A stretch of 32,122 bases of DNA from a virus, in IMG/VR virus record IMGVR_UViG_3300031215_000045, positions 1-32,122 of that record; one strand, 5' to 3'. The translations under genes and the position numbers were made by a program. This document shows, piece after piece, positions 1,743-30,619 of the stretch. The notes under the pieces are model-generated. The model was not told where the DNA came from. It saw only the letters and a list, made by a program, of their open reading frames with translations, and searched no databases. How positions within the stretch are numbered: position 1 is the stretch's first letter; every line of letters starts with the position of its first letter.

Positions 1743-2117
1743 TTACCTTTTAATTAGATTTTTGGGCATTACGGTATCTACCTGTTTACCTTTCATTAGC
1801 TGGGCTGGAACAGCCCAAGGCATCATTTTTTTGGCCTTGGCTAATAAGCCGTCAAAATGTTGAAAAAACTGTCCTATAGTGTCTGCGTTTTGGAGCTTTG
1901 CTCCAGCGTCGCAGTACTTTATGATGAATTTAAGTTTTACTTTGATTAAATCGTCCCAAGCATCTTGTTGTTTGGTGATGAATTTGTATAACGCCATAAT
2001 ATCGTTATCAATACTATCAAAGTCTGGAATTCCACATTCGTATAATTCCTCTACCCTTTGGCGACACCATTCATAGGCTTTGGGTTTTTTGGCCTTTAGT
2101 GATTTAATGTTTTTCAT
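1743..2117 (-). CDS. Hypothetical protein, first gene of left cluster
   Basis: A 124-residue, lysine-rich, largely helical protein without signal peptide or membrane segment. It begins MKNIKSLKAKKPKAYEWCRQ and has two cysteines near the N-terminal third and a basic C-terminus. It is divergent from the terminase, the usual place for a small regulator or an early gene, but I see no convincing helix-turn-helix or other motif. A small terminase subunit is not excluded, since none is otherwise visible, but the opposite orientation argues against it. Confidence 0.6.
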   Translation of the reverse strand: MKNIKSLKAKKPKAYEWCRQRVEELYECGIPDFDSIDNDIMALYKFITKQQDAWDDLIKVKLKFIIKYCDAGAKLQNADTIGQFFQHFDGLLAKAKKMMPWAVPAQLMKGKQVDTVMPKNLIKR

Positions 2118-2239
2118 AAGTTTTTAATGATTTGGGCTTGCAATTAACATATCGTTGTTTTATGGGTTTTAGTAAAGGATGATATATGTATTCATTAAAC
2201 CCATGATGTTACGCCTATATTTGATTCTTCTTTGTTAAG

Positions 2240-2277
2240 ATGGGCTGATTGTTTTTATAATGATCAGCCCATTTTTA
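2240..2277 (+). terminator. Rho-independent terminator, rightward
   Basis: A perfect 10-bp stem, ATGGGCTGAT (2240-2249) with ATCAGCCCAT (2263-2272), has a 13-base loop and is followed by a run of T. It points rightward although no rightward gene lies before it in the window. It may insulate the terminase operon from upstream read-through or end a short untranslated RNA. Confidence 0.75.
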
Positions 2278-2309
2278 TCTATGCAAAAGGCTTACAATTC
2301 AAAATGTAG
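2278..2309 (+). repeat. Repeat copy C, split by an insertion
   Basis: TCTATG (2278-2283) and CAATTCAAAATGTAG (2295-2309) match the two halves of copies A and B, with 11 extra bases between them; the second half has one mismatch to copy A. It starts just after the terminator at 2240-2277, as copy B starts just after the hairpin at 332-359. Confidence 0.55.
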
Positions 2310-2352
2310 CATTTTTATATGTATCTTATTTTGTCTTATGTTATCCCTGGTT

Positions 2353-2411
2353 GGGGACCCCTATAGGGGTCCCCATAGAGGTGCCCGTTCACGCACCTCT
2401 AGAGGTGCCCG
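2353..2411. promoter_or_regulatory. Cluster of perfect palindromes upstream of terminase
   Basis: GGGGACCCC-TATA-GGGGTCCCC (2353-2374) is a perfect 22-bp palindrome. Next, AGAGGTGC (2377-2384) can pair with GCACCTCT (2393-2400), and the same GCACCTCT can pair with a second AGAGGTGC (2401-2408), giving a 16-bp palindrome at 2393-2408. AGAGGTGCCCG is thus directly repeated at 2377 and 2401. The middle arm can pair either way, as in an attenuator or switch, or the DNA palindromes may bind a dimeric regulator or packaging protein. Confidence 0.65.
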
Positions 2412-2589
2412 AATGCAAACAATACGAGATTTAATACACATTTTAAAATAAACTACATTTGTGCATGTAACACCATATTAAATGATGCATAGCCCATAAA
2501 CCCAAAGAAATACTAAACATCCAGTGGGGCTGGTATGCCAATATAAAGTAAATGTGAATGTGCCTAGACCAGCGATATATGCACTTATA

Positions 2590-4044
2590 ATGGATTTAGC
2601 CAACATACTAGCAGACGAGGACAAGATACTAGCAGATATTTGTAAAGAGGACTTTTATGAATTTTTGCAGGAGTTTTGGACGGAGCTTATTGACGAGGTG
2701 CCTGTTTACAATTGGCACATTGCGTATCTGTGCAAGGGCTTGCAAGTTGTGGCGGAGCGGGTATTTAGGGGAGAGCCCAAAAAATATGACGTAGCTATCA
2801 ACATCAGCCCTGGAACCACCAAGACGACTATTTGTAGCGTCATGTACCCAGCTTGGATTTGGGCGCGTATGCCTGCGGCTAGAATTATATCATGCTCTTA
2901 CTCCCACAGTGTTGCTGTTGACTCCGCTGTTAAGAGTAGGCAGATAATTGAAAGTGAAAAATACAAAAGACTATTCCCTGACGTTCAGTTGTCAGAGGTT
3001 CAAAATGCCAAAGACCATTACCGTAGCACTAAGAATGGAATGCGCTACTCCGCAGGCACACGGGGACGGGTGACAGGGCAGCACGGGCACTTCATTATCA
3101 TCGACGACCCCATTAACCCATTAGAGGCATCTTCAAAGTCAGGACTAAAAACGGCAAATGATTGGATTGGCAAGACACTACTATCACGTAAAGTAGATAA
3201 AGCGGTAACACCCACTATTATGATCATGCAGCGGTTGCACCAAGAAGACCCAACTGACTTCTTCCTTGACCGTGATGGGGCGCAAGTGAAGCACGTATGC
3301 CTCCCGGCACGCCAGCCAAAAGAAAACGACAAACGTGTATCCATCAAACCTGCCCATTTAGTCAAACGGTACACAAATGGTTTAATGGACCCAGTGCGTT
3401 TAAGTGACGCTGTGTTGAGTGAGGCTAGGGCTGACTTAGGGGAGTATGGTTATGCTAGCCAGTTCGATCAAACCCCCATTCCTGAGGGTGGTGGTATGTT
3501 TGAAACAGACAAGTTCCAAATGGCCAAGCTACCACTACCATTTAATGAATATAGGATGGTAATAAGGTTCTGGGACAAGGCGGCTAGCTCTAATGATGGA
3601 GACTATACTGCTGGCGTTAAAATGGCTGTTGATAAACATGGTGCTTACTGGGTGCTCCATGTAGCCAAGGGGCAGTGGGGGACATTTTTACGCGAGAGTA
3701 AAATGAAGCTTTACGCTAGCCAAGATGGGTATGATGTGTATGTAGGGCTTGAGCAAGAGCCTGGTTCAGGGGGAAAAGACTCCACGTTATCCTCTGTTAA
3801 AAACCTAGCTGGTTATGTCACACGGGTAGGGAAGCCGACAGGGGATAAGGTGTTACGCGCAGATGCCTACTCAGTTCAAGTAAACTCTGGAAATGTGTAT
3901 ATGGTGATAGGTAGCTGGAATGCCGAGTATAAAGAAGAGCTTTCCTTCTTTCCTTACGCCAAACACGATGACCAAGTAGATGCAAGTTCTGGGGCATTTT
4001 CGATTCTAAGCAAGGGCAAGACAAGAGTAGGTGGAATAAACTAA
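2590..4044 (+). CDS. terL: Terminase large subunit
   Basis: The packaging motor ATPase and nuclease, which cuts concatemeric DNA and pumps it through the portal. In the 484-residue version from ATG 2590, an unusual Walker A-like loop SPGTTKTT lies at residues 73-80 and Walker B (IIIDDP, D172/D173) follows. The C-terminal RNase H-fold nuclease shows acidic residues in FWDKA (D329), GLEQEPGSG (E388) and KHDDQVDA (D460/D461). The Pro-Gly-Thr-Thr-Lys form of the P-loop is typical of one phage terminase family. An in-frame GTG at 2524 could add 22 residues; I prefer 2590 because the extra residues do not look like terminase sequence. No small subunit is recognised nearby. It starts the rightward operon. 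Confidence 0.95.
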   Translation: MDLANILADEDKILADICKEDFYEFLQEFWTELIDEVPVYNWHIAYLCKGLQVVAERVFRGEPKKYDVAINISPGTTKTTICSVMYPAWIWARMPAARIISCSYSHSVAVDSAVKSRQIIESEKYKRLFPDVQLSEVQNAKDHYRSTKNGMRYSAGTRGRVTGQHGHFIIIDDPINPLEASSKSGLKTANDWIGKTLLSRKVDKAVTPTIMIMQRLHQEDPTDFFLDRDGAQVKHVCLPARQPKENDKRVSIKPAHLVKRYTNGLMDPVRLSDAVLSEARADLGEYGYASQFDQTPIPEGGGMFETDKFQMAKLPLPFNEYRMVIRFWDKAASSNDGDYTAGVKMAVDKHGAYWVLHVAKGQWGTFLRESKMKLYASQDGYDVYVGLEQEPGSGGKDSTLSSVKNLAGYVTRVGKPTGDKVLRADAYSVQVNSGNVYMVIGSWNAEYKEELSFFPYAKHDDQVDASSGAFSILSKGKTRVGGIN

Positions 4045-5749: not shown

Positions 5750-6575
5750 CCCATCACGTACTGTTACTTTAAGGCGAAGCTTTTGGTCCGCCCTTAGAAA
5801 ACGATACAACAAAGTCAAGAAAGCTGTAAAAGAACAAATAGTTGACAATGATGCTTTGGGGATTGGTTTTAATGCCCCTGTATCAGGTCAAGTGTCTAAT
5901 CAAGAGTTCTGGGCTTACCTAAATACTCCTGAAAAAGTAGATGCTTTTATGGCTTGGATCAATGATGTAGTTGACCGTGAAGTAATGTCTGTTGATTGGC
6001 ATAAAGGCTACATAGAAAGTGCTTACAAAAAGGGGCTTACTAGGGCTTTTAATGATGCTCGTAAAACAGCAAGAGCCACCCAAGGAGAAGATTTCTACCA
6101 AGGCTCTATGAGTGAGTTTATAGGACAGGCTTTCTCTCAGCCAGAAACTTTGGAGACCATTGCCGTAGTATTCAGCCAAAGCTTTGAAGCTCTTAAAGGT
6201 ATAAATGCCTCTATGGCTACAAGCATTAGGAATGCTTTAGCGGAAGGATTAGCAAGAGGAGATTCTATCCCAGCTGTATCTCGCGCCATAATGGATCAAA
6301 TAGATAATATATCCGCCAAACGCGCTCGTTTGATAGCGCAGACAGAGGTTATACGAGCCCACGCCGAAGCTCAACTAGATGCTTTCGAAAAACTAGGGGT
6401 AGAGGAGCTAGGGGCTTTGGTAGAATTTTCGACTGCTGGCGATGGTAGAGTATGCCCCAGATGCAGCAAAATGAATGGAAAACGCTTCACACCCAAACAA
6501 GCTAGAGGGGTTATACCACTTCACCCAGGGTGCAGATGCACTTGGATACCTTATATAGATTTCAAAGATGAGTGA
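5715..6575 (+). CDS. Minor head protein, Mu gpF / SPP1 gp7 family
   Basis: A 286-residue head morphogenesis protein that in relatives associates with the portal inside the procapsid and may be ejected. The diagnostic C-terminal block has AQTEVIRAHAEAQLDAF followed by CPRCSKMNGKRF and HPGCRC, a Cys-x2-Cys plus His-Pro-x-Cys-x-Cys arrangement typical of the family. The N-terminus (DPSRTVTLRRSFWSALRKR) is also typical, supporting the start at 5715 even though it overlaps the portal gene by 35 bases. The end overlaps the next gene by 8 bases. Confidence 0.9.
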   Translation: MKIHALRPLQNDPSRTVTLRRSFWSALRKRYNKVKKAVKEQIVDNDALGIGFNAPVSGQVSNQEFWAYLNTPEKVDAFMAWINDVVDREVMSVDWHKGYIESAYKKGLTRAFNDARKTARATQGEDFYQGSMSEFIGQAFSQPETLETIAVVFSQSFEALKGINASMATSIRNALAEGLARGDSIPAVSRAIMDQIDNISAKRARLIAQTEVIRAHAEAQLDAFEKLGVEELGALVEFSTAGDGRVCPRCSKMNGKRFTPKQARGVIPLHPGCRCTWIPYIDFKDE

Positions 6576-17140: not shown

Positions 17141-19546
17141 ATGCCAACACTAGGAGAAAGGTTAATAACCGCAGTTCAACAATTAGAAGTCGATTCTGCA
17201 CTGTTTAAACAGTTTACTCAAGGGGACGGTAGCGTAACTGTCACAACCGAAGGGGGCAGTTACCCATCACTTCAACGCTACATTGAGCAGGTGTTTAAAT
17301 GGCGAGGTTCATACGCTAGTGGCGAAGACTATGTGCTTGGGCAAACTTTCAAGGAAGGCTATGCGGCTTACCGTGTTACAACGAGTTTCACATCAACCAC
17401 TTTCGGGGATGATGCGGCAAACTATGAACTTTGGTTTGATTTCACCAATGTTGTGACCGACGCAGAGGACGCACGCGACGCTTCACAAGCGGTCCTTGAC
17501 GAATTTACAACCTTGTATCTTGGCGCTAAAGATACAGACCCCGCACTCGACAACGATGGGGACTCTCTCGCTGATGGCGCTATGTATTGGAACTCTACTT
17601 CCAATGTGCTCAAATTTTACGATCTTGAGAATACCATCTGGGCTGACCCTACTATAGACGGTCAATTGAGTGCTGATGCAGCCGCTGCGAGTGCAGCGGT
17701 AGCCAATGCAGCTACGGCTACCAAGGCGGATAGGGATATGCTAAACGTTGACAACAACAGCATCGGGACAGCTTTGTTGAGTACCCAAGTGATGGCGTTG
17801 CTTAATGCTATCAACACTAGCTCAGGTTACATCCGTGAGGGGCAGTTTGACGCATCGGGTGGTATCTACCCAGTTGATGCCACGGGCGACATGTCGAGCT
17901 ACACAGCTTCACGCTCAGCTTGGTATACGACAGTAGCTGGGGTAGTAGGCGGTCGCTCCCATGCGGTAGGCGATTGGGTCATTTGGAATGGGGGCGTTGC
18001 AGATGCCATCGGGTCTTGGGATAAAGATGAATCCCCAACTTTGAATATACCAGATAGCACCATAACTAAAGCAATGTTATCCGCTGTGGTGAAAAACTTA
18101 ATGCTCGAAGAAGAGCCTTATGCTAATTTTCATAAACTTTGGGAGGTCAACGGTAAAGCTCTGGGTGGAATTAAAACTTCGGGTGAGTGGTTTATCCCGC
18201 ACGCAGAGATTGCTGGGGCAAGCGAAACTACTGACAGCAGTTTCGCAAATGTGGTGCTAGCTTATCGGATTGAAGACAAAGTAGTTTTTTACATCCGCGA
18301 CAATGGCCAAGTGTTTATCCCACAATTAGTTTTAAATCTAAACATTAATGAGGATTTTAAATTTGTTGAACGGTTAGCGCTGGCTAACTCGAATTACCCT
18401 GATGCTGTGCTTAAAACTGGCGTGACACCTTTTACCATTACAGGCAAATTTCCTGTTGAACCATTGTTTGTTGTGTCATTTCAGGATGACGACGCTATCG
18501 ACAACCCCACTGATTCTGGACACGGCAAAAGTGGTGGTTTTTTCTCACGCGCCCGACCAGTCCTAAAACAGTTTGGGATGACCGCAAGCGAGGGGGTAAT
18601 CATGCGGCCACAGTGGGATGACACTCTATCGTCGCAAGCTTCGTATATACAATCTAGAGCTGTCCAGAATGTGGAAGGTTGGGAGCTGACTAACCACAGC
18701 CGAAACCATACTGTGCCATCAAGTTCAGGCTACGACCCTTACGAGGAGTGGGTGCGGTCGGTGGATGTGGCCAAGTCAGGCGGTATGCATTTTAAGAATG
18801 CTGTGTATCCTGGAGGCCACTCAAGTCATGAGATGCGTGAGGTGGTGAGGATTCGGCATCGCTGCGGTCAAGGAATCAATGACTTCGGGATGCAAAGCTC
18901 TTACTTTAACCGATCACCTTTAATCTCCTATAACCTAGTTCGCTACGTTCTGGACGCATCTGGGGGGTTTGGATCCAACCAAGTTGCGCCCCACGCTGAA
19001 CGTCAACTAGCTAGCTGGAAGTCCATGATTGATCAAGGGATCGCACTCAAAAACGCTGGGCAACGGGTATGGTTAATCCTAGAATCTCACTGGTATAAAG
19101 GAGAGTGGACAAACTGGAACACAGCGGGGGCTTTAGCTGACACCTATGCAGGGGGAGCCCTTCCAAGCGACCCGTCAACGTGGGGTGCGGGTGAAGCCGC
19201 TTACGATTCTGATTGGGTTATTCAAACCTTAAAAGACGGATCAGGGAATATCGTAACACCAACTGGCGAACTGACTAAGGCGGATTGTGCCGTTCCTGAT
19301 GGTTGGCGTCCGCAGAACGACTGTCGCCTGCACGACCTTTACGAACTGTGTGCATACATGCAGGCCGCGTCAGACGATGTGACGGTCGTAAACACCGACC
19401 GCGCAATGGATTTGATGGCTAACATCGCAGACGTTGGAGATTTTACAAATGGTGGATTAGGTCGAGGTGACCCTGAAGCTGTTTTAAACTATCCTCACTA
19501 CGTAGTGGGAGCAGACGGTAGGTCGTCATTCAACCCTTCACTGTAA
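17141..19546 (+). CDS. Tail fibre with NodB-like polysaccharide deacetylase domain
   Basis: An 801-residue protein. The N-terminal ~400 residues look like a fibre: SYASGEDYVLGQTFKEGYAA binding-type repeats, an Asp-rich DPALDNDGDSLADGAMYWNS block and an Ala-rich coiled coil near residue 185. From about residue 435 it has the order of a carbohydrate esterase 4/NodB fold: acidic motif 1 in FVVSFQDDDAID (D449-D451), motif 2 HSRNH (H519, H523), motif 3-like YPGGH (556-560), and a late His in ILESHW (H650). Such enzymes remove N- or O-acetyl groups from surface polysaccharides with a metal ion. It likely recognises and trims host capsule or exopolysaccharide during adsorption. Confidence 0.75.
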   Translation: MPTLGERLITAVQQLEVDSALFKQFTQGDGSVTVTTEGGSYPSLQRYIEQVFKWRGSYASGEDYVLGQTFKEGYAAYRVTTSFTSTTFGDDAANYELWFDFTNVVTDAEDARDASQAVLDEFTTLYLGAKDTDPALDNDGDSLADGAMYWNSTSNVLKFYDLENTIWADPTIDGQLSADAAAASAAVANAATATKADRDMLNVDNNSIGTALLSTQVMALLNAINTSSGYIREGQFDASGGIYPVDATGDMSSYTASRSAWYTTVAGVVGGRSHAVGDWVIWNGGVADAIGSWDKDESPTLNIPDSTITKAMLSAVVKNLMLEEEPYANFHKLWEVNGKALGGIKTSGEWFIPHAEIAGASETTDSSFANVVLAYRIEDKVVFYIRDNGQVFIPQLVLNLNINEDFKFVERLALANSNYPDAVLKTGVTPFTITGKFPVEPLFVVSFQDDDAIDNPTDSGHGKSGGFFSRARPVLKQFGMTASEGVIMRPQWDDTLSSQASYIQSRAVQNVEGWELTNHSRNHTVPSSSGYDPYEEWVRSVDVAKSGGMHFKNAVYPGGHSSHEMREVVRIRHRCGQGINDFGMQSSYFNRSPLISYNLVRYVLDASGGFGSNQVAPHAERQLASWKSMIDQGIALKNAGQRVWLILESHWYKGEWTNWNTAGALADTYAGGALPSDPSTWGAGEAAYDSDWVIQTLKDGSGNIVTPTGELTKADCAVPDGWRPQNDCRLHDLYELCAYMQAASDDVTVVNTDRAMDLMANIADVGDFTNGGLGRGDPEAVLNYPHYVVGADGRSSFNPSL

Positions 19547-22067: not shown

Positions 22068-22330
22068 AATACTTCCTACTACTAATCTTATCTTGTTGTA
22101 CCTTGGCGGCACAAGAACTCAATCTTACACCAGAACTACTGGAAAAACCATTCTTTGAGTGGGAATGGAACATCACAACCTTACTTGTGATCTCCATGTT
22201 TGCAGGGCGCGTTATCAACTACGCAAAGGTCAACGGAGGCATCAGAGGCCTTGGCCGAGCTTTGTGGTTTGGTGGCATTGTAGGCGAGAATACTCCGAAA
22301 CAAAAAGATGGCAAGAGCGGCAAAGTTTAA
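22064..22330 (+). CDS. Small membrane protein with N-terminal signal
   Basis: An 88-residue protein. Residues 1-16 are a hydrophobic signal with two adjacent cysteines (SCC, residues 10-12), possibly an early lipobox. A second hydrophobic segment lies at about 36-52 (NITTLLVISMFAGRVINYAK), and the C-terminus is basic. A holin or spanin component is possible from position. A terminator-like inverted repeat follows ten bases after the stop. Confidence 0.6.
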   Translation: MKYFLLLILSCCTLAAQELNLTPELLEKPFFEWEWNITTLLVISMFAGRVINYAKVNGGIRGLGRALWFGGIVGENTPKQKDGKSGKV

Positions 22331-22339
22331 GCCTACAGG

Positions 22340-22397
22340 CGAAAAAGAGAACCCAGTGCAAGCATGGTATGATGCCCTTGCACTGGGCTCTTTTTCG
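22340..22397 (+). terminator. Long near-perfect inverted repeat, probable bidirectional terminator
   Basis: The left arm (22340-22362) begins CGAAAAAGAG and ends CCCAGTGCAAG. The right arm (22377-22397) is its reverse complement apart from two extra A in the left arm. That gives about 21 paired bases around a 14-base loop, with a T5 run in the right arm and the matching A5 in the left, so it can act in both directions. It begins ten bases after a stop codon and ends 12 bases before the ATG preferred for the DUF1353 gene. Confidence 0.75.
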
Positions 22398-22409
22398 GGC
22401 AACCCCCCT

Positions 22410-22826
22410 ATGCTCCAATGGATAGGGGCGGACATGTGGCTATTCCACCCAGACAAGGAGTTTCCCTTTACTTTCACCCGTGGTAACGGTGAATTAATCA
22501 CGGTAGGCCAGTTTCGCGACAAGATGGTCTCGTTTGGCACCGATGGGGGTTCTATCCCAGATTACATTCGCGGCCTTCCCAACCTCTCTCGCTGGCACTA
22601 CGGCGCGGCATATCTTATCCATGATTGGCTGTGGCACATCCATAAACAGGGCTGGGGAGTATACACTTTTCAAGAGACAAATATCATTCTTTGCGAGGCT
22701 GTGAAGACTTTGATCGAAACAGGCTACGTCGGCCATGATACTTTTAAGGGCGATGCAGGCACGACGATGAATATTCATCGTGGCGTTTCCTCGTTTTTTG
22801 GGCATAAGATTTGGAGTAGGGAATAA
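22410..22826 (+). CDS. DUF1353 protein
   Basis: A 138-residue protein. The motif FGTDGGSIPDYI (residues 42-53) and YLIHDWLWHIH (69-79) define DUF1353, a phage-associated family of unknown function often found near lysis or tail genes; the conserved Asp and His suggest a metal or catalytic site. The longer reading from 22308 would encode the inverted repeat of the preceding terminator and has no domain-like sequence there, so I prefer ATG 22410. It ends two bases before the tail-tip gene. Confidence 0.75.
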   Translation: MLQWIGADMWLFHPDKEFPFTFTRGNGELITVGQFRDKMVSFGTDGGSIPDYIRGLPNLSRWHYGAAYLIHDWLWHIHKQGWGVYTFQETNIILCEAVKTLIETGYVGHDTFKGDAGTTMNIHRGVSSFFGHKIWSRE

Positions 22827-22827
22827 C

Positions 22828-23943
22828 ATGGCGTCTACCGCATATAAACAAGCATACAAAGAGGCACTAGCGGCAGCTAAGAGCAATGTGGTGATGCTGC
22901 ACACTCTTGAAATTACCAGCGAGCTAGCTTCTACGGAGGTAAAAGATATTGATGTCTGTTTTGTTGTAGATGATACGAGTTCTATGTCAAGTGAAATCAA
23001 TAGCCTGGTGACGGTGCTCCCTGCCGTTGTCACTAGCCTTTCAGAACGTTTTAGAACAGTGCGTGTCGGGCTGACTAGGTTTAAAGATGAAGACGACACT
23101 ACGGTAGTCAAAAACCTAACAACAGATGTCGCTTCTGTGCAAGCGGAGATGGCGGCTTTGGTGGCAAGCGGAGGCGGTGATGGTCCAGAGAATGGTTTCG
23201 GTGCTACCGTACAGGCAGCACAATCTATGGTGTGGTCTACCTCTTACAGCACCCGCCGTAACATTGTTTTGATCACCGATGCGGTAAGTTTTGAGACAGG
23301 CGACGAGGGGAATAGCGGCATAAATCATACTGCTGGTGCGACAGAACAGCAGGCCCTGGACGCTTTGACTTCTCGTAATATACGATTTATTCTAGGAGCC
23401 ACATCTTCTTTTTCTAACTACAACTACGGAAACTTGGTAGCTGATACAAATGGGGTAGTGGTGCCTAGATTTCATGTAGATCCACTAGAAGATTTAGTGG
23501 CTGCACTGAAGTTAGTTCTAGTGGTAGACCCTAACCTAGAGCCCATATACATTATACAAGCAAGGCAACCATATGAGCTGACTTTGGAGAACGGGGAATC
23601 CAAAGTATTCGAACCTGTTGCTTTCCGTTTCACACTACCTGGGCAAGATGACCAAGGTTTGCAAGACCTCAACATCACAATCGATAATGTCGACAAACGT
23701 ATAGGTGATTGGGTGGAAGCTGCAAGTGCTTATGATGCTCCCGCCTTAGTCCGTTACCGACCTTACCTAAGTACAGATCTGACCACACCCCAAATGGACC
23801 CTCCCTTGACTCTTACTCTCAGTGATATCAAGCGAACCTCTTTTGAGGTATCGGGTCGCGCCAGTGTCGCTGATATTGTCAATTTAAAGTTCCTCCGCTT
23901 GCTTTATTTGCGCAGTCGCTTCCCATCACTCGGCAACACTTAA
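22828..23943 (+). CDS. DUF1833 tail protein with nested vWA domain
   Basis: A 371-residue protein. Residues 1-33 (AYKQAYKEALAAAKSN then VVMLHTLEITSE) look like the start of DUF1833 tail proteins. Residues ~40-235 are a von Willebrand A domain with an intact metal-ion-dependent adhesion site: DxTxS (D48, T50, S52), GGGDGPE (115-121) and LITDA (T150, D151). From residue 238 the DUF1833 fold resumes (PIYIIQARQPYELT, IDNVDKRI) and ends SRFPSLGNT. The vWA domain therefore appears inserted into a tail-tip protein; vWA domains bind proteins through a metal ion, so adhesion to the host or to a virion partner is a reasonable guess. It is followed two bases later by the NlpC/P60 gene. Confidence 0.8.
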   Translation: MASTAYKQAYKEALAAAKSNVVMLHTLEITSELASTEVKDIDVCFVVDDTSSMSSEINSLVTVLPAVVTSLSERFRTVRVGLTRFKDEDDTTVVKNLTTDVASVQAEMAALVASGGGDGPENGFGATVQAAQSMVWSTSYSTRRNIVLITDAVSFETGDEGNSGINHTAGATEQQALDALTSRNIRFILGATSSFSNYNYGNLVADTNGVVVPRFHVDPLEDLVAALKLVLVVDPNLEPIYIIQARQPYELTLENGESKVFEPVAFRFTLPGQDDQGLQDLNITIDNVDKRIGDWVEAASAYDAPALVRYRPYLSTDLTTPQMDPPLTLTLSDIKRTSFEVSGRASVADIVNLKFLRLLYLRSRFPSLGNT

Positions 23944-23944
23944 T

Positions 23945-24340
23945 ATGAACAACTTGACACAATACATAGGAAAACCGTATGCCGTGCTTGGTAGGGGGCC
24001 TGATGAGTTTGATTGTTGGGGACTTGTAATGCACTTCTATGAAAAAGAGTGGGGCGTTAAGCTGCCCAACCAACCAGTTGAAGCAAGCGACATCATCGAA
24101 GTGTTAAAAGCCTTCAAGGTATCAACCGCACATAAAGATTGGATGCCTACTGAAACGCCTGTGCAGGGGTCTGTCGTGGTAGCTGGACGCAATCGATTCT
24201 TTTCACATGCAGGCGTTTACATCGAGGGTGGTCATGTGTTACATACAACCAAAGAAGCAGGCGCTTCGTGTGTGCAATCGATTAAAGGTTTTCGTAATAG
24301 CTACCAGCATACCAGCTTCTTTAACTACCAATCAAAATGA
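23945..24340 (+). CDS. NlpC/P60 tail peptidase, lambda gpK-like
   Basis: A 131-residue cysteine peptidase. FDCWGLV holds the nucleophile C24; SHAGVYI gives H88 and HVLHT gives H100. In lambda-like tails this family is needed for tail tip assembly and may cut peptidoglycan cross-links during infection. It lacks the N-terminal JAB domain of lambda gpK. It overlaps the next gene by four bases (ATGA), the conserved order before gpJ-like proteins. Confidence 0.85.
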   Translation: MNNLTQYIGKPYAVLGRGPDEFDCWGLVMHFYEKEWGVKLPNQPVEASDIIEVLKAFKVSTAHKDWMPTETPVQGSVVVAGRNRFFSHAGVYIEGGHVLHTTKEAGASCVQSIKGFRNSYQHTSFFNYQSK

Positions 24341-26916
24341 TCAACATAGCGATAGTCAAAAATCCATTCAACCCGCTTAAAGACGTTGAAATATATCGCA
24401 GTGATTTGCACACGGTGAATTCCGTTGTCGGTTATTACAATGTGCCGGTTAATGAAATACCTATAATTGCGATACTGAATAACGATCAGCAAAATCCACT
24501 AACCAGAGACCAGTGGGATGATGAACTCCCCGACGAGGCCTACTTGACTTTTATTCCAATAGTCGATGGGGGGTTTTTATCGCTTATTATTACGGTGCTA
24601 TTAACTATCGTGTCAATCGCGATTGCGCTATCGCTCCAAGTCCCTATACCCAACTCGCCTAACATAGCAGAGGCAGACCCCGTTTACTCACTTAAAGGGC
24701 AGACAAATCAGATTAAGTTGAATGAGCCTATAGAGTCCTTGTACGGAAGCCCCCGCCACTGGCCTTCCTACGCCGCCAAGCCCTACAATATGTATCAGAA
24801 TAATAATGCCTACCAATACGTCCTGCTTTGTATCGGTCATGGTTCTTATGATGTACACCAGGTTTATATTGAAGACACCCCCATTGAGGATTTCCCTGAA
24901 GTAGAATTTGAGATAGTAGAACCTAATGGCACTTTTAACCTGTTTCGTGACAACGTGCAGACTTCTGGAGAAATAGGTTCTGTTGAGATGTATGGACCTA
25001 ATGAAGACGACTACGGCAGTGACATAGGCTTTGCTGGTGTGGTTGCAAATGATGCATTTACTACAACAGACAAAATCCAAATCGACCTGACACTAGGAAG
25101 GGGCTTGTACAGGCAGAATAGTTCAGGGAAATTAAGAAACTATACGGTAAGTGCCGCTTTTGATTATATACAAATTGACAACACCGTTGAAGCCAACCCA
25201 ATTGAGGGTGCAGTATGGGCAAACCTAACAACATTCACCAAAACACTTGCAACCATCAACCCGCAGAGGTTCACAATAGAAGCCAATATACCTGCAGGGC
25301 GTTACAAAATACGGGGAAGGAGGACAAATAATGCCTCTGATAGCCACAAAGTAGGCGACACGCTCACCTGGGAGGCTTTGCGCTCTTTCCTGCCCAATGT
25401 AGGCACCTACGGAGATGTGACAATGTTGGCAGTAAAGATGAAAGCCACTGCTAATCTAAACGATCAAAGCAAAAGAAAATTCAATGTCAAAGTGACACGC
25501 AAATTACCCATTTATGATAAAGCGACTGGATCATGGTCGGCTCCAACAGCGACGAGGTCTATCGTGTGGGCATTCTGTGATATTTTTAGATCAGGTTATG
25601 GCGCGTTCTTGCCTGATACTATTTTAGATCTAGACACACTGGCTGACCTAGATGCCGAGTTTAGTGCTTTTGAACATCCCCGCTATTTCGATTGGGTTTT
25701 TGATTCCGAAACAACCGTGTGGGAAGCAGCGCGGACTTGCTGCCGTGTGGGGCGTGCAATACCGATGTTCAACGGTTCGCAGTTGTATATGGTTATCGAC
25801 AAACCCAAATCAATTGTTAGCCAGCTTTTTAATCAAGAAAACATTGTAGCTGATTCCTTCGAAGAAAATATAAAATTGTTTGTACGCGAAGAATACGATT
25901 CTATTGAAATGGAATATACCGATGACAATACGTGGAAGGCTGAAACCGTGCTATGCGCGTTGCCCAATAGCTTTGCGGAACGTCCTGAGCGTATAATACT
26001 TCCAGGTGTGACAGATAGGACACGAGCATACCATGAAGGCATGTACATGCTAGCCCAAAAGAAATTCCAGCGAAGGGAAGTCACTTTCACTACCGGCATC
26101 GAAGGGCTACTTGCTTCCTACGGTGATTTGATTAAAGTCCAGAAACGTATATTCGGCACTGACGGTTCGGTGGGTGGATACCTAAAAGCTATTGAAGCTG
26201 ATAGAAGAACTGTCACGCTATCGCAGAACGTAGAGTTCATTTCAGGTGAAGATTATAGCCTTTTGATTTGTGGACCTTCCGGAATTCCATACGGTCCTTA
26301 TACAGTGGAAGCATCGCCAGCGCCTCACGTCGAAAACATTGTGGTATCTGAAACTGATATAAGCGAAGATATCGAATTTACACCCAATGCAGAAAGCCCA
26401 TTATTTATTTTTGGCAGAGCAATAGAATTTGCCCGAGATTGTGTCATTACAGGACTCGCCCCCACGGAGAACGACACCGTAGAAATTAAAGCGGTCTTAT
26501 ACCGCCCCGAGGTTTATGCGTACGACACAGAAGAAGCCCCAGACCTGTTTAACCCGAGCGTCGGGGTCGTAGATACTGGTTTACCTGTTGTGACGGGAGT
26601 CTTTGTAGCCAATGCCACTGCAAATCTATACCGCATTACGTGGAAAGCTGCCCAAGGTGCTGTGAATTACATTGTGCAAGTATCAGCAGATGATTTGGCG
26701 GTTGGTGAGAGCGGTAAAGTATGGGACACGATAGGGGAGACCGCATCAACATTTTTCGAGGTGGCATTGCTTACTGACTACACATACATCCGCGTCGCTG
26801 GCATTAACACAGGGCAAGGTCCTTGGGCTTATCACGAAACAGAACTTTACGACATCCTGGTAGATGACGAAGGCAACAAACTAATAGACAGCGACGAAAC
26901 AATCCTCGTAGGCTAA
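24337..26916 (+). CDS. Tail tip/host-specificity protein, TipJ (gpJ-like)
   Basis: An 859-residue tail tip protein that closes the tube and contacts the host. The first ~105 residues form a small domain followed by a hydrophobic stretch (about 80-100, LSLIITVLLTIVSIAIALSL), like the gpI/TipJ N-terminus. The core has NEPIESLYGSPRHWPSYAA near residue 130 and the typical VFDSETTVWEAARTCCRVGR and GSQLYMVIDKPKSIVSQLFN region. The last ~100 residues resemble an FN3 domain (LYRITWKAAQGAVNYIVQVS). Its position after NlpC/P60 is diagnostic. Confidence 0.9.
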   Translation: MINIAIVKNPFNPLKDVEIYRSDLHTVNSVVGYYNVPVNEIPIIAILNNDQQNPLTRDQWDDELPDEAYLTFIPIVDGGFLSLIITVLLTIVSIAIALSLQVPIPNSPNIAEADPVYSLKGQTNQIKLNEPIESLYGSPRHWPSYAAKPYNMYQNNNAYQYVLLCIGHGSYDVHQVYIEDTPIEDFPEVEFEIVEPNGTFNLFRDNVQTSGEIGSVEMYGPNEDDYGSDIGFAGVVANDAFTTTDKIQIDLTLGRGLYRQNSSGKLRNYTVSAAFDYIQIDNTVEANPIEGAVWANLTTFTKTLATINPQRFTIEANIPAGRYKIRGRRTNNASDSHKVGDTLTWEALRSFLPNVGTYGDVTMLAVKMKATANLNDQSKRKFNVKVTRKLPIYDKATGSWSAPTATRSIVWAFCDIFRSGYGAFLPDTILDLDTLADLDAEFSAFEHPRYFDWVFDSETTVWEAARTCCRVGRAIPMFNGSQLYMVIDKPKSIVSQLFNQENIVADSFEENIKLFVREEYDSIEMEYTDDNTWKAETVLCALPNSFAERPERIILPGVTDRTRAYHEGMYMLAQKKFQRREVTFTTGIEGLLASYGDLIKVQKRIFGTDGSVGGYLKAIEADRRTVTLSQNVEFISGEDYSLLICGPSGIPYGPYTVEASPAPHVENIVVSETDISEDIEFTPNAESPLFIFGRAIEFARDCVITGLAPTENDTVEIKAVLYRPEVYAYDTEEAPDLFNPSVGVVDTGLPVVTGVFVANATANLYRITWKAAQGAVNYIVQVSADDLAVGESGKVWDTIGETASTFFEVALLTDYTYIRVAGINTGQGPWAYHETELYDILVDDEGNKLIDSDETILVG

Positions 26917-27409: not shown

Positions 27410-27982
27410 CTACAGTCGAATTACATTACCAACTTCAAGTTCTGGGATATGCGTCACCATAATAAACTGAATGCCAAGTTCGCTTGAAAGTAAATTAAGC
27501 ATGGAGGCGACTCTTCCCCTGTATGTTTTAGATAGAAACTTAAAGGGCTCATCTAGTATTACTGCTCTCCTTAGCGGTGGTCTAGAAACCATTAAGCAAG
27601 AAATACGCAAGGCAAAGGCTGCTATATCAACCGCACCACCACCACTCCCCGCCATAGGGTCAACTTCTTCCCCATTACGGATGAAGACAAGCTTTGCTTC
27701 TGTTTTTCCCCGTTTTTGTTCAAAGATAATACTAAACTCGTAAGCTTCTTCCTCAAATATAGTTTGCAGGCATTTAGTGACAATACTACTTATCTTCTTA
27801 TGCGCTTTCTCTTGGACTATGGTGGCAACGGTCTGTGCAATGGCATTAGCATCATCCGCCCACTCTACTTTTAGTGCAGTTTCTTCTAAGAACTCTTGTT
27901 CACGCTTTACATCACGTTTAGCCAACAAAAAGTCTTCATAGAGATTTTCTACAATTTCGCTTATATCAGATACCGAGCTCAT
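27410..27982 (-). CDS. Rad50/SbcC-like ATPase, C-terminal lobe
   Basis: A 190-residue protein with the C-terminal half of an SMC/Rad50 ATPase: a short helical start, a signature-like loop GSGGGAVDIAAFALR (112-126), Walker B AVILDEP (D144/E145), D-loop FKFLS and H-loop VTH (H178). It has no Walker A. The matching N-terminal lobe with Walker A is encoded separately at 29573-30619 in the same operon, so two chains probably assemble into one ATPase head. Last gene of the operon; its start overlaps the coiled-coil gene by 17 bases. Confidence 0.85.
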   Translation of the reverse strand: MSSVSDISEIVENLYEDFLLAKRDVKREQEFLEETALKVEWADDANAIAQTVATIVQEKAHKKISSIVTKCLQTIFEEEAYEFSIIFEQKRGKTEAKLVFIRNGEEVDPMAGSGGGAVDIAAFALRISCLMVSRPPLRRAVILDEPFKFLSKTYRGRVASMLNLLSSELGIQFIMVTHIPELEVGNVIRL

Positions 27983-28211
27983 CTTTGTATTTTTCTTGGA
28001 ATGCTTGTGATTTTTCGTTAAAGGCCTCTTCTGCCTTGTCCCGCTCTTTTTCTTTTGTTTTTAATAGGGCTTTGGCCTCTTTAGCAGTCTTAACGCCAAA
28101 TGTTTTCTTGAGGTCTTGGAGGGCATTGCTGTAAGCCCCTTTAGCGTTGTCAACTTCGGATTGCTTTGTAGCAATTTTTTCTTTTAGTTTATTGAATTGT
28201 TCTATCTTCAT
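27966..28211 (-). CDS. Coiled-coil protein beside Rad50 C-lobe
   Basis: An 81-residue, Lys/Glu/Ala-rich, almost wholly helical protein (FNKLKEKIATKQSEVDNAK and LLKTKEKERDKAEEAF). It has no enzymatic motif. It lies directly before, and overlaps, the Rad50 C-lobe gene, where a full-length Rad50 would have its returning coiled coil. It may supply that segment as a separate chain, or be an unrelated helical adaptor. Its ATG overlaps the TGA of the DUF3310 gene. Confidence 0.6.
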   Translation of the reverse strand: MKIEQFNKLKEKIATKQSEVDNAKGAYSNALQDLKKTFGVKTAKEAKALLKTKEKERDKAEEAFNEKSQAFQEKYKDELGI

Positions 28212-28648
28212 AATGCTCGTAATAAGTATGTTCTTGCTCTGCGTAAAAATGCTTTTGTTGCCCCGTGCCTATGGCATCTTATAAGGGCATGAATCGCTGT
28301 TTTGATGTTTTGGTCCTTAAACCCACCAACAATGCTAGAGCAATTATCTTTCAAGAAAAATGCAACCTCTGTTGGCACTTGTATTTGAATAACTTGCGCA
28401 TTCAACATAGGGTATTCTTTTGGCAAACGGCTTCGCTGCCATTCAGCATCTTCATTTAAGTGGCGGTTGATATACCAAATAGCTTTGTTAATGTCTTGGG
28501 TTGCTAGGTCTTTTTTAAGCCCCGCCCTCCATACATATTTAATTGCATTACCAACATTGAAACCAAACCATTGACAAACGTCGATACATTCAATTCCGCT
28601 CTTGTGCTGGTTGTAGTGTGTGGGGTTACTTACTTGTTCTGTTTTCAT
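28208..28648 (-). CDS. DUF3310 protein
   Basis: A 146-residue protein. The N-terminal block NPTHYNQHKSGIECIDVCQW and FNVGNAIKYVWRAGLKKD followed by INKAIWYINRHL is the signature of DUF3310, a small phage family sometimes annotated as nucleotide kinase-like but of unproven function. The C-terminal ~75 residues are additional and unassigned. It lies between the Mre11 and coiled-coil genes with ATGA overlaps on both sides. Confidence 0.8.
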   Translation of the reverse strand: MKTEQVSNPTHYNQHKSGIECIDVCQWFGFNVGNAIKYVWRAGLKKDLATQDINKAIWYINRHLNEDAEWQRSRLPKEYPMLNAQVIQIQVPTEVAFFLKDNCSSIVGGFKDQNIKTAIHALIRCHRHGATKAFLRRARTYLLRAL

Positions 28649-29583
28649 TTATTTTCTGTTATGTCTAGTAGTATTTTTTTGACGTGTTTATTTACTTTTT
28701 TATCTTTGATGTATTTAATTAAAATTTCTACAAAATCTAGGCCGTTGCTTTCTGCACTTTCAAGCTCTTCTATAAAACCGCTAACGTCAACACCATCAAT
28801 CTCCCCTACCATATCGCGCAGGGTGTGTGGGTTGATAAAAACATCCTTTTCGCAGTCTAGGTAAACTCTTTCTATGCTACCATCATTAAAAAGCAAACCC
28901 ATTGATGGCGTGGAGTTTATTTCGTCTGATTTGCGCCTCATGAAACCGCCATTGTTCAATATAGTGGTTGCACCGCTTTTTATCAAGAAGCCTTTGTGGT
29001 TATCTCCAAATAAAGCGGCATCGTACCCTTTAAGTTTCTTTTTGTAAGCTACGGCATTTTGTGATTTAGAAGCCCCCGTGTAGGTGTTCTCTTTGTGCCA
29101 GCAGTAAGCGTGAATTACAGCTAAGTGAATTACGCCTTTTGCAAACGCGGAACTTGTTTGAGGCTTTATGGGAAAACCCCATGGAAATCCATGTAAAACC
29201 AATTTACTCTCTTTTACATAAATAGGCTTGTCAGGTTCTACCAGTTTAATGCACCCCCCTTTAACAAGAACTCCAAAGGCACTACCGTCCATTGCATCAT
29301 AGTCATGGTATGGTAGGTCGTGCTGCCCAGGAATAGCGTAGTCATCTTTTAAGTAGTCCCATGCCATATTTATTAAGGTGCTGGATTCTTTTTCTCGTGA
29401 TTTGTCAAATATGTCACCACCTATAATTCCAGGTATTGAATGCCGTTGTTTGAGATCAGCCCACTGTTGTAGGTAGGACTCTTGCCTACCAAGCCAATTT
29501 TTTTCATTGCTACGGGCAATGGGGGGAGTGGCTGATAAGTGAATATCACTTACTAGGGATGCAATTGGTTTTTTAGTGCTCAT
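28645..29583 (-). CDS. Mre11/SbcD-like nuclease
   Basis: A 312-residue calcineurin-like metallophosphoesterase. Metal-binding motifs are SDIHLS (D13, H15), GGDIFD (D57), GQHD (86-89, with Gln where many families have Asn), a VIHAYCW His and FGDNHKG. This is the order of the Mre11 nuclease that works with Rad50 on DNA ends. The genes on either side encode the two lobes of a Rad50-like ATPase, strongly supporting the assignment. Likely roles are recombination, replication-end processing or host DNA degradation. It overlaps both neighbours. Confidence 0.85.
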   Translation of the reverse strand: MSTKKPIASLVSDIHLSATPPIARSNEKNWLGRQESYLQQWADLKQRHSIPGIIGGDIFDKSREKESSTLINMAWDYLKDDYAIPGQHDLPYHDYDAMDGSAFGVLVKGGCIKLVEPDKPIYVKESKLVLHGFPWGFPIKPQTSSAFAKGVIHLAVIHAYCWHKENTYTGASKSQNAVAYKKKLKGYDAALFGDNHKGFLIKSGATTILNNGGFMRRKSDEINSTPSMGLLFNDGSIERVYLDCEKDVFINPHTLRDMVGEIDGVDVSGFIEELESAESNGLDFVEILIKYIKDKKVNKHVKKILLDITENK

Positions 29584-30619
29584 GTTCTACTTCGCTTCCG
29601 CAAAGGGGGCATACTCCCTTTGAATTAAGTTTTAACTCTTCTTTAAGTTCTTCTAGTATTTGTTGTTTTTCTGTGATAGTTTGTTTTAGGGTTTCACATG
29701 ATTGTATGCAATCCCCTAGCCTCGCGCACTGTTCTTTACTTTCTTTGTAAGCTATCAACACGTCGCCCAGCAAGGTGCAGCTTTTTTGCATCTGCTTTAC
29801 CACGTCCTCTTGTTTGAGTGTTTCCTGTAAATCATGCAAATCATCGAGCTTTTCTTCTAATTTCAAGCAGGTTTTGTTTAGGGCTACCAGCCCCTCGCCT
29901 AGCTCTACTACAATACCGCCGCCCTGCACTACCGATCCGGCGCGTTTGCCCCTCTCTCGGTGCCTATGTAGCTGCCCTATGCCCTCGGCTAATTGTAGGG
30001 CATCCTGGCGGGTAGTCAACATAACCCCCTCGGCCTCGAGCACTACGTCCCACTTTTCTTTAACAACCTCAATAAAGCCTAAATCATCTAAAGCTTCCTT
30101 TGCTTTTAGTAACCGTCCTTCTGTTACAGCAAATTCACTCTTACGCCTTTTTAGAAGTGAGTGGGTTTCTTTAAGGGTTACATCAATTACGCCTAGGTCA
30201 ATTATTTCGTTCAATTGCCTACTAACCTCCCCCGCACTCTCACCAAACCAATATTCATTGTCATGCTGTTGGTGGATGTTTATTTTATTGATGCACAAAA
30301 AGTCTTGAATGGGATCAGGTACCTTAGCCCCAAAAGCCTCAAATAATTCATCGCCTAGTTGGTATTGGTTTTCTTTGCTACTTTTCTTTCTTGTTAGGGT
30401 TACTTTTTCTGAAAGCCTTATTTTAACCTCTACCTCATCAGTGCCCCATGCCTTGAACCCGATGCCTCCAGGTGTATTTCTCAAGCACCATACTAAAGAT
30501 CTTACAATAGAGGATTTTCCACAATCTGTGGGTCCCACTATTACGTTGACACCTTTAGTAAAAGACAGTTTTAGGTTTTTATGCTTTTGAAAGTTTTTTA
30601 TTTTTGCACCTAATATCAT
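29573..30619 (-). CDS. Rad50/SbcC-like ATPase, N-terminal lobe with zinc hook
   Basis: A 348-residue protein. Walker A GPTDCGKS lies at residues 29-36, a Q-loop-like INIHQQHDNEYWF near 113-125, then a long coiled coil to about 330, and CPLC at 337-340, the zinc-hook motif that normally sits at the apex of the Rad50 coiled coil. The chain ends there, so the returning coiled coil and the C-lobe are absent and are instead encoded downstream. The upstream gene overlaps by ATGA and the Mre11 gene overlaps its end by 11 bases. Confidence 0.85.
   Translation of the reverse strand: MILGAKIKNFQKHKNLKLSFTKGVNVIVGPTDCGKSSIVRSLVWCLRNTPGGIGFKAWGTDEVEVKIRLSEKVTLTRKKSSKENQYQLGDELFEAFGAKVPDPIQDFLCINKINIHQQHDNEYWFGESAGEVSRQLNEIIDLGVIDVTLKETHSLLKRRKSEFAVTEGRLLKAKEALDDLGFIEVVKEKWDVVLEAEGVMLTTRQDALQLAEGIGQLHRHRERGKRAGSVVQGGGIVVELGEGLVALNKTCLKLEEKLDDLHDLQETLKQEDVVKQMQKSCTLLGDVLIAYKESKEQCARLGDCIQSCETLKQTITEKQQILEELKEELKLNSKGVCPLCGSEVEHEH

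Follow-up and report, generated by a model that had tools for sequence, protein, structure and literature searches.

A von Willebrand factor A domain predicted to be inserted in a DUF1833 tail hub protein, with counterparts in the tail-tip proteins of other viruses

The DNA analysed here, a stretch of 32,122 nt from a bacterial virus that is called the window throughout, carries on its plus strand a 371-aa open reading frame at 22828–23943, and the translation, Pfam and PHROGs point to a DUF1833 hub protein that contains a von Willebrand factor A (vWA) domain. The ATG start is at 22828, the stop of the upstream gene lies 1 nt earlier, and a ribosome-binding-like stretch, GGAGTAGGGA, precedes the ATG. 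In the PHROGs search, the protein was assigned to phrog_396, minor tail protein. A DUF1353-like gene lies upstream (22308–22826, plus strand; weak Pfam match and tblastn). The hub gene is located directly 5′ of two further plus-strand genes, one for an NlpC/P60 tail protein (23945–24340; PF00877, E 1.7e-14) and one for a TipJ/gpJ-like central tail protein that lacks a vWA domain (24337–26916; Pfam FNIII-A_GpJ and Phage-tail_3; PHROG 469 and 31). The reading frame, its start and coordinates, and its place before NlpC/P60 and TipJ had been given in an initial annotation of this DNA, and the translation and the Pfam and PHROGs assignments of the neighbours agree with it on each of these points. 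A MoxR-AAA partner for the vWA domain was not found by Pfam among the adjacent DUF1353-like, NlpC/P60 and TipJ genes.

Two other features of the window were recorded. On the minus strand (27410–30619), an SbcC/Rad50-like ATPase is apparently coded as two separate genes, of which the N half (29573–30619) has AAA_23 and a zinc-hook-like CPLCG at its end and the C half (27410–27982) matches SMC_N profile positions 139–198; genes for a phosphoesterase, a DUF3310 protein and an 81-aa product lie between the halves. On the plus strand, 17141–19546 encodes an 801-aa fibre-like tail protein, in the C part of which the motifs FQDDD and HSRNH look like those of NodB deacetylases; sequence searches of Pfam and the PDB returned no match for this C part.

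The hub domain is divided into an N-terminal part (residues 1–31; 22828–22920, plus strand), recognized by the joined-ends Pfam score, an HMM of our own and the structural model, and a C-terminal part (residues 237–371; 23536–23940, plus strand), recognized by Pfam DUF1833 and PHROG 396. Positions 27–150 of the Pfam DUF1833 profile (PF08875) match residues 237–360 with an E value of 2.8e-26. When the insert was left out, a single match to profile positions 2–150 was obtained, which covers the whole profile including the N-terminal strand and scores 101.6 bits (cut-off 21), as against 87.9 bits for the C part alone. The HMM made from 43 insert-free viral DUF1833s matched the N-terminus of the window protein at profile positions 1–54 (conditional E 7.7e-07) and its C-terminus as a separate stretch at positions 30–174, and a significant separate N-terminal match was found in all three vWA-bearing DUF1833 proteins, the other two of which are described below. 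The initial annotation had assigned residues 1–33 to DUF1833 and had described the domain as split by the vWA domain. The segment is indeed the true start of DUF1833, with the division falling after residue ~31, and the joined ends make up one DUF1833 domain from which the vWA domain emerges as a loop; only the C part is called by Pfam on its own.

Structure prediction points in the same direction. The AlphaFold2 model of the window protein was built from an alignment of 58 rows, in which the N and C fragments were aligned separately because MAFFT misplaces strand 1, and it reached a pLDDT of 76 and a pTM of 0.62. It contains a helix at 4–16, strand 1 at 23–31 (block pLDDT ~95), the vWA domain, and then the elements from E240–243 onwards. 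An insert-free relative (L018), modelled by AlphaFold2 with a pLDDT of 83, consists of H4–16, E23–30, E39–42, E48–51, E58–63, E65–69, E81–86, H90–99, E106–114, E127–136 and E140–146. The order of secondary-structure elements is the same in both proteins, save for ~200 residues between strands 1 and 2, so that the architecture is that of a loop insertion rather than a fusion; in the models, the vWA domain is an insertion in the β1-β2 loop of DUF1833. A simple N-terminal fusion of the vWA domain to a shortened DUF1833, with residues 1–33 as an unrelated leader, would fit the fact that Pfam by itself begins DUF1833 at profile position 27, and in MAFFT alignments strand 1 can end up beyond the vWA domain. 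This explanation was rejected as extremely improbable, given the rise of the joined-ends score, the separate N-terminal HMM match in three proteins, and the presence in the model of the helix 4–16 and strand 23–31 of the insert-free relative.

The nature of the host domain can be deduced from fold comparison. The insert-free model matched baseplate hub 1 of Shigella phage Sf11 (gp16, 9occ_F) with an E value of 3.9e-09 and a TMt of 0.71, and further matches were the upper baseplate protein of JBD30 (gp50), the hubs of T5 and DT57C, the tail tip of T1, the tail-tip chains of lambda (gpL), Chi, and the hubs of RcGTA and R4C. A search with the DUF1833 profile found Sf11 gp16 by sequence as well (E 3.9e-04), in an alignment that includes strands 1 and 2. 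Taken together, the fold matches to known hubs and the sequence match to Sf11 gp16 indicate that DUF1833 has the predicted fold of the hub attachment (HDI) domain of gpL-type hubs, and a role is thereby assigned to DUF1833. The C-terminal iron-sulfur domain with four cysteines that belongs to gpL-type hubs was not found in the window protein; it has a single cysteine (C44) and its chain ends after the HDI domain, which makes it an HDI-only hub, as is Sf11 gp16.

The inserted vWA domain occupies residues 34–234 (22927–23529, plus strand). Pfam VWA_4, VWA_2 and VWA all match at ~42–186 above cut-off, with E values from 1.7e-10 to 3.1e-07, and integrin beta chains and Ku are on top among the PDB fold matches of the window model. 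The first motif of the metal-ion-dependent adhesion site (MIDAS), D48-D-T50-S-S52 (22969–22983, plus strand), keeps its position in the two other vWA-bearing DUF1833 proteins, where it reads DTSGS (L009) and DRSDS (L091), and the aspartate of T150-D151 (23275–23280, plus strand) is kept in both as well. The DGPE of residues 118–121 (23179–23190, plus strand) was aligned by phmmer to the DSPE of integrin beta-7, which puts E121 at the place of the DSPE glutamate. The initial annotation had described an intact MIDAS from D48/T50/S52 and T150/D151, and the sequence bears this out and supplies E121 in addition; judged by its letters (D48/T50/S52 as DxS/TxS, E121 in the second loop and D151 in the third), the domain carries a complete predicted metal site. 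The second half of the modelled vWA domain is weak, with pLDDT below 50 at 162–168 and 194–212; we therefore make no claim about its fine detail or orientation, and the orientation relative to the hub is left unfixed by the model (pTM 0.62).

Other phages had been proposed as a place to look for the same insertion, and it was found at the same loop in two viral contigs: in a 360-aa DUF1833 protein of L009 (contig 3300017951_000070) and in a 542-aa DUF1833 protein of L091 (3300040751_001842; 1951–3576). In L091, an extra domain at residues ~279–389 follows the vWA domain in the same hub loop; these ~110 residues match part of phrog_13374 (E 5.6e-13), a family of unknown function, and gave no match in Pfam or the PDB. 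Between the window and L009, where a DUF1353-like gene also lies upstream of the hub, tblastn identities were 64% for the hub C part, 66% for the DUF1353-like protein, 53% for TipJ and 39% for NlpC. The same search gave no match between the vWA domains, which are ~29% identical with the MIDAS positions kept, and the vWA domain is the fastest-changing part of this neighbourhood. It is also optional in these hubs. L089 and L090, with DUF1833 52–53% and TipJ 42–43% identical to those of the window, have hubs without the insert and no vWA match elsewhere in their contigs, and the hub of L092 lacks the insert too. In the hub-domain tree, one group (support 99/99) unites the three vWA members with three hubs that lack the insert; a single origin of the insertion, that is one change, fits the tree and is weakly supported (54/50).

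Additional members were sought in several collections. Viral contigs were scanned with a degenerate-DNA pattern for E-A-x-A ... F-x-x-D-x-S-x-S, which misses variants, and among the matches listed the three known members were the only DUF1833 proteins; scans of a bacterial and archaeal genome collection revealed no relative. No protein combining vWA and DUF1833 was found by tblastn in cultured phages, and the six annotated cultured-phage DUF1833 genes sampled (Donnerlittchen, Barton, V07, BcepGomr, D3 and Klebsiella phage 5) code for 160–177 aa, which leaves no room for a vWA insert. The vWA proteins of crAss001 type were reached by tblastn only at E 0.2–0.4. The window-type vWA profile found its best match outside DUF1833 proteins (E 9e-11) in a free-standing 201-aa vWA protein at 5786–6391 of L283, a 131-kb viral contig.

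Cultured phages do carry a vWA domain in another hub family. Among viral proteins, the window model gave its best fold match to a 483-aa virion protein of Pseudomonas phage PaMx28, which by length and description is gp30. In PaMx28 gp30, the hub attachment domain PF09931 begins at residue 228 from profile position 27, PF09356 is present, and a vWA domain lies at 25–202. The same vWA-hub (PHROG 15205) was found in Mallos (BL60039), Bordetella phage MW2 and Stenotrophomonas phage QH3, and eight loci of this type were found in IMG/VR (L301–L308), one of them probably a copy of a Bordetella phage. When these hubs were aligned with the insert-free hubs of SCUT-S3, PAKlein3, Elanor, RcTitan and ZS04, the vWA domain was located to the short turn flanked by ELYRFVEG and VWT, once more between strand 1 and strand 2, and DxSxS and T-D are invariant in these vWA domains. 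Where the contig reaches, the TipJ-like protein of PaMx28-type loci contains a second vWA domain at ~150–350; TipJ-like proteins with their own vWA domain, at ~130–350 and N-terminal to Phage-tail_3, are encoded, in loci of this or allied type, at 6394–9147 of L291, 27059–29896 of L289, 5197–7950 of L293 and 5240–8011 of L297. In ZS04 and Elanor, the vWA domain is present in TipJ only, the hub being without it. In RcTitan, where the hub likewise has none, it is carried by gp22 (L294, 3274–5001), a DUF2460-like distal tail protein encoded upstream of the hub, where residues 194–377 of the open frame match the profile with an E value of 7e-19; this is a third tail-tip position for the vWA module.

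The window-type and PaMx28-type hubs belong to different families. The window, L009 and L091 proteins matched PHROG 396 only, and neither PHROG 15205 nor TIGR02218 was matched; when the profiles of DUF1833 and the TIGR02218 hub were compared, with few sequences on one side, no similarity was detected, and the vWA domains of the two types are distantly alike (hhalign probability 77). The window hub works like the PaMx28-type vWA-hub and is not a member of that family. As the hub families share no detectable sequence similarity and their vWA domains are distant, either vWA domains entered the loop on more than one occasion or the insertion is of great age. Display of a vWA domain at the tail tip is accordingly less unique than the initial annotation had supposed, and its presence in cultured phages with a different version of the hub indicates that this is a genuine means of equipping the tail, one that has arisen repeatedly in hubs and seems not to have been described. 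We tentatively propose, with rather less than even confidence, that a transferable vWA cassette entered the strand 1-strand 2 loop of two dissimilar hub families, as well as TipJ-like and DUF2460-like proteins, and that siphophages thereby gained an integrin-like, metal-switched ring for attachment at the tail end, which would be a general alternative to sugar-binding modules.

With respect to function, the favoured reading, to which a probability of about 0.55 is given, is that the vWA hub is an 'evolved hub', whose module makes a secondary, exchangeable, metal-dependent contact with the host surface and is displayed from the last tail ring; it is preferred to a latch within the virion and to a neutral passenger, both considered below. 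The window protein would be a hub ('upper baseplate') subunit of gpL type, that is an HDI domain without the iron-sulfur part and with the vWA domain in the strand 1-strand 2 loop. As in lambda, the last tail ring would contain three hub copies in alternation with the hub domains of TipJ, and three vWA domains would project sideways from it. The MIDAS sits on the face opposite the termini in integrin I domains. According to a passage in PMC3919171, the two termini of a vWA domain lie near each other, and with both features the metal site of the inserted domain would point away from the ring, where it could engage an acidic group of a surface protein of the host via Mg2+ or Mn2+. Such a contact would add to those of TipJ and the fibres, a function that falls to sugar-binding domains in 'evolved' Dit and Tal proteins; as in evolved tail-tip proteins, the module is found in a loop of a core domain that has insert-free relatives. 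In JBD30 gp50, a homologue of solved structure, the contact loops named for domain I are residues 8–14 and 32–51 (PMC11445458), and our alignment puts the strand 1-strand 2 turn of gp50 at ~22–24, outside them, which fits an exposed insertion site. A metal-dependent adhesin near the tail tip, as suggested in the initial annotation, is plausible.

The hub ring is in contact with the distal tail ring, so the vWA domains may be placed higher than the tip, with poor access to the host. It is possible, though we consider it unlikely, that the MIDAS instead has its acidic ligand within the virion, on another tail protein (Dit, TipJ or a fibre), and thus docks the fibres or keeps the tip closed until contact. 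Domains of the vWA type often serve protein-protein assembly, the hub ring of JBD30 is the place where fibres and distal tail proteins attach (PMC11445458), and the vWA domains of hub and TipJ-like protein in PaMx28-type phages could pair together. Against such a latch stand the sister hubs, which assemble without a vWA domain next to a TipJ 42–43% identical to that of the window, the window's own vWA-free TipJ, and a vWA domain that diverges faster than its would-be binding partners. The rapid change of the vWA domain would also be expected if constraint on it were loose, or if one vWA domain had been exchanged for another. The vWA domain could also be a neutral passenger in a tolerant loop with no essential role, as the low identity between vWA domains, the variable insert length and the further domain in L091 could suggest; the retention of the MIDAS positions and the open frame at ~29% identity, and the fact that vWA domains recur in a second hub family, where DxSxS and T-D are invariant, make this improbable.

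An integrin-like domain carried by the hub ring suggests that the receptors are proteins and that a divalent metal acts as a switch, an idea that can be put directly to the test in cultured phages with a vWA-hub, such as the P. aeruginosa phage PaMx28. Sequences of vWA-hubs are already public, and the TipJ-like protein of MW2 is annotated as vWA. No description of vWA domains in tail hubs was found in the open-access literature, an absence that is weak evidence by itself. Inserted binding modules in Dit, Tal, hub and megatron proteins are already known and have been described as sugar binders.

Several known systems can be compared with the window hub. Archaeal siphoviruses Hardycor1 and HVTV-1 encode a viral vWA domain with a MIDAS beside an AAA ATPase (PMC7911831), but there it belongs to the replication/accessory region, outside the tail genes, whereas that of the window is in the tail hub. 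The integrin beta headpiece, in which beta-I is placed in the hybrid domain, resembles the window protein in having a vWA domain in a loop of a beta-sandwich and a DSPE-like MIDAS region; no common descent of the host domains is implied, and overall superposition is poor (rmsd ~8–15 angstrom). Sf11 gp16, D3 orf22 and gp21 of Acinetobacter phage Barton represent the same domain in the same place before NlpC/P60 and TipJ, but are insert-free and of ~160–177 aa. The PaMx28-type vWA-hub is similar in its MIDAS-bearing vWA domain in the strand 1-strand 2 turn of the hub attachment domain and in its gene position between the tape measure and TipJ-like genes; it differs in its sequence family (TIGR02218 / PF09931 and PF09356), in its iron-sulfur/BR0599 part, in the second vWA domain of the TipJ-like protein, and in vWA domains that are only distantly alike. 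The evolved Dit and Tal proteins and the hub and megatron of RcGTA and R4C have in common with the window hub that a binding module is built into a core protein of the tail tip and displayed there, but those modules are sugar- or oligosaccharide-binding folds at other sites, whereas the window hub carries a vWA domain predicted to be metal-dependent.
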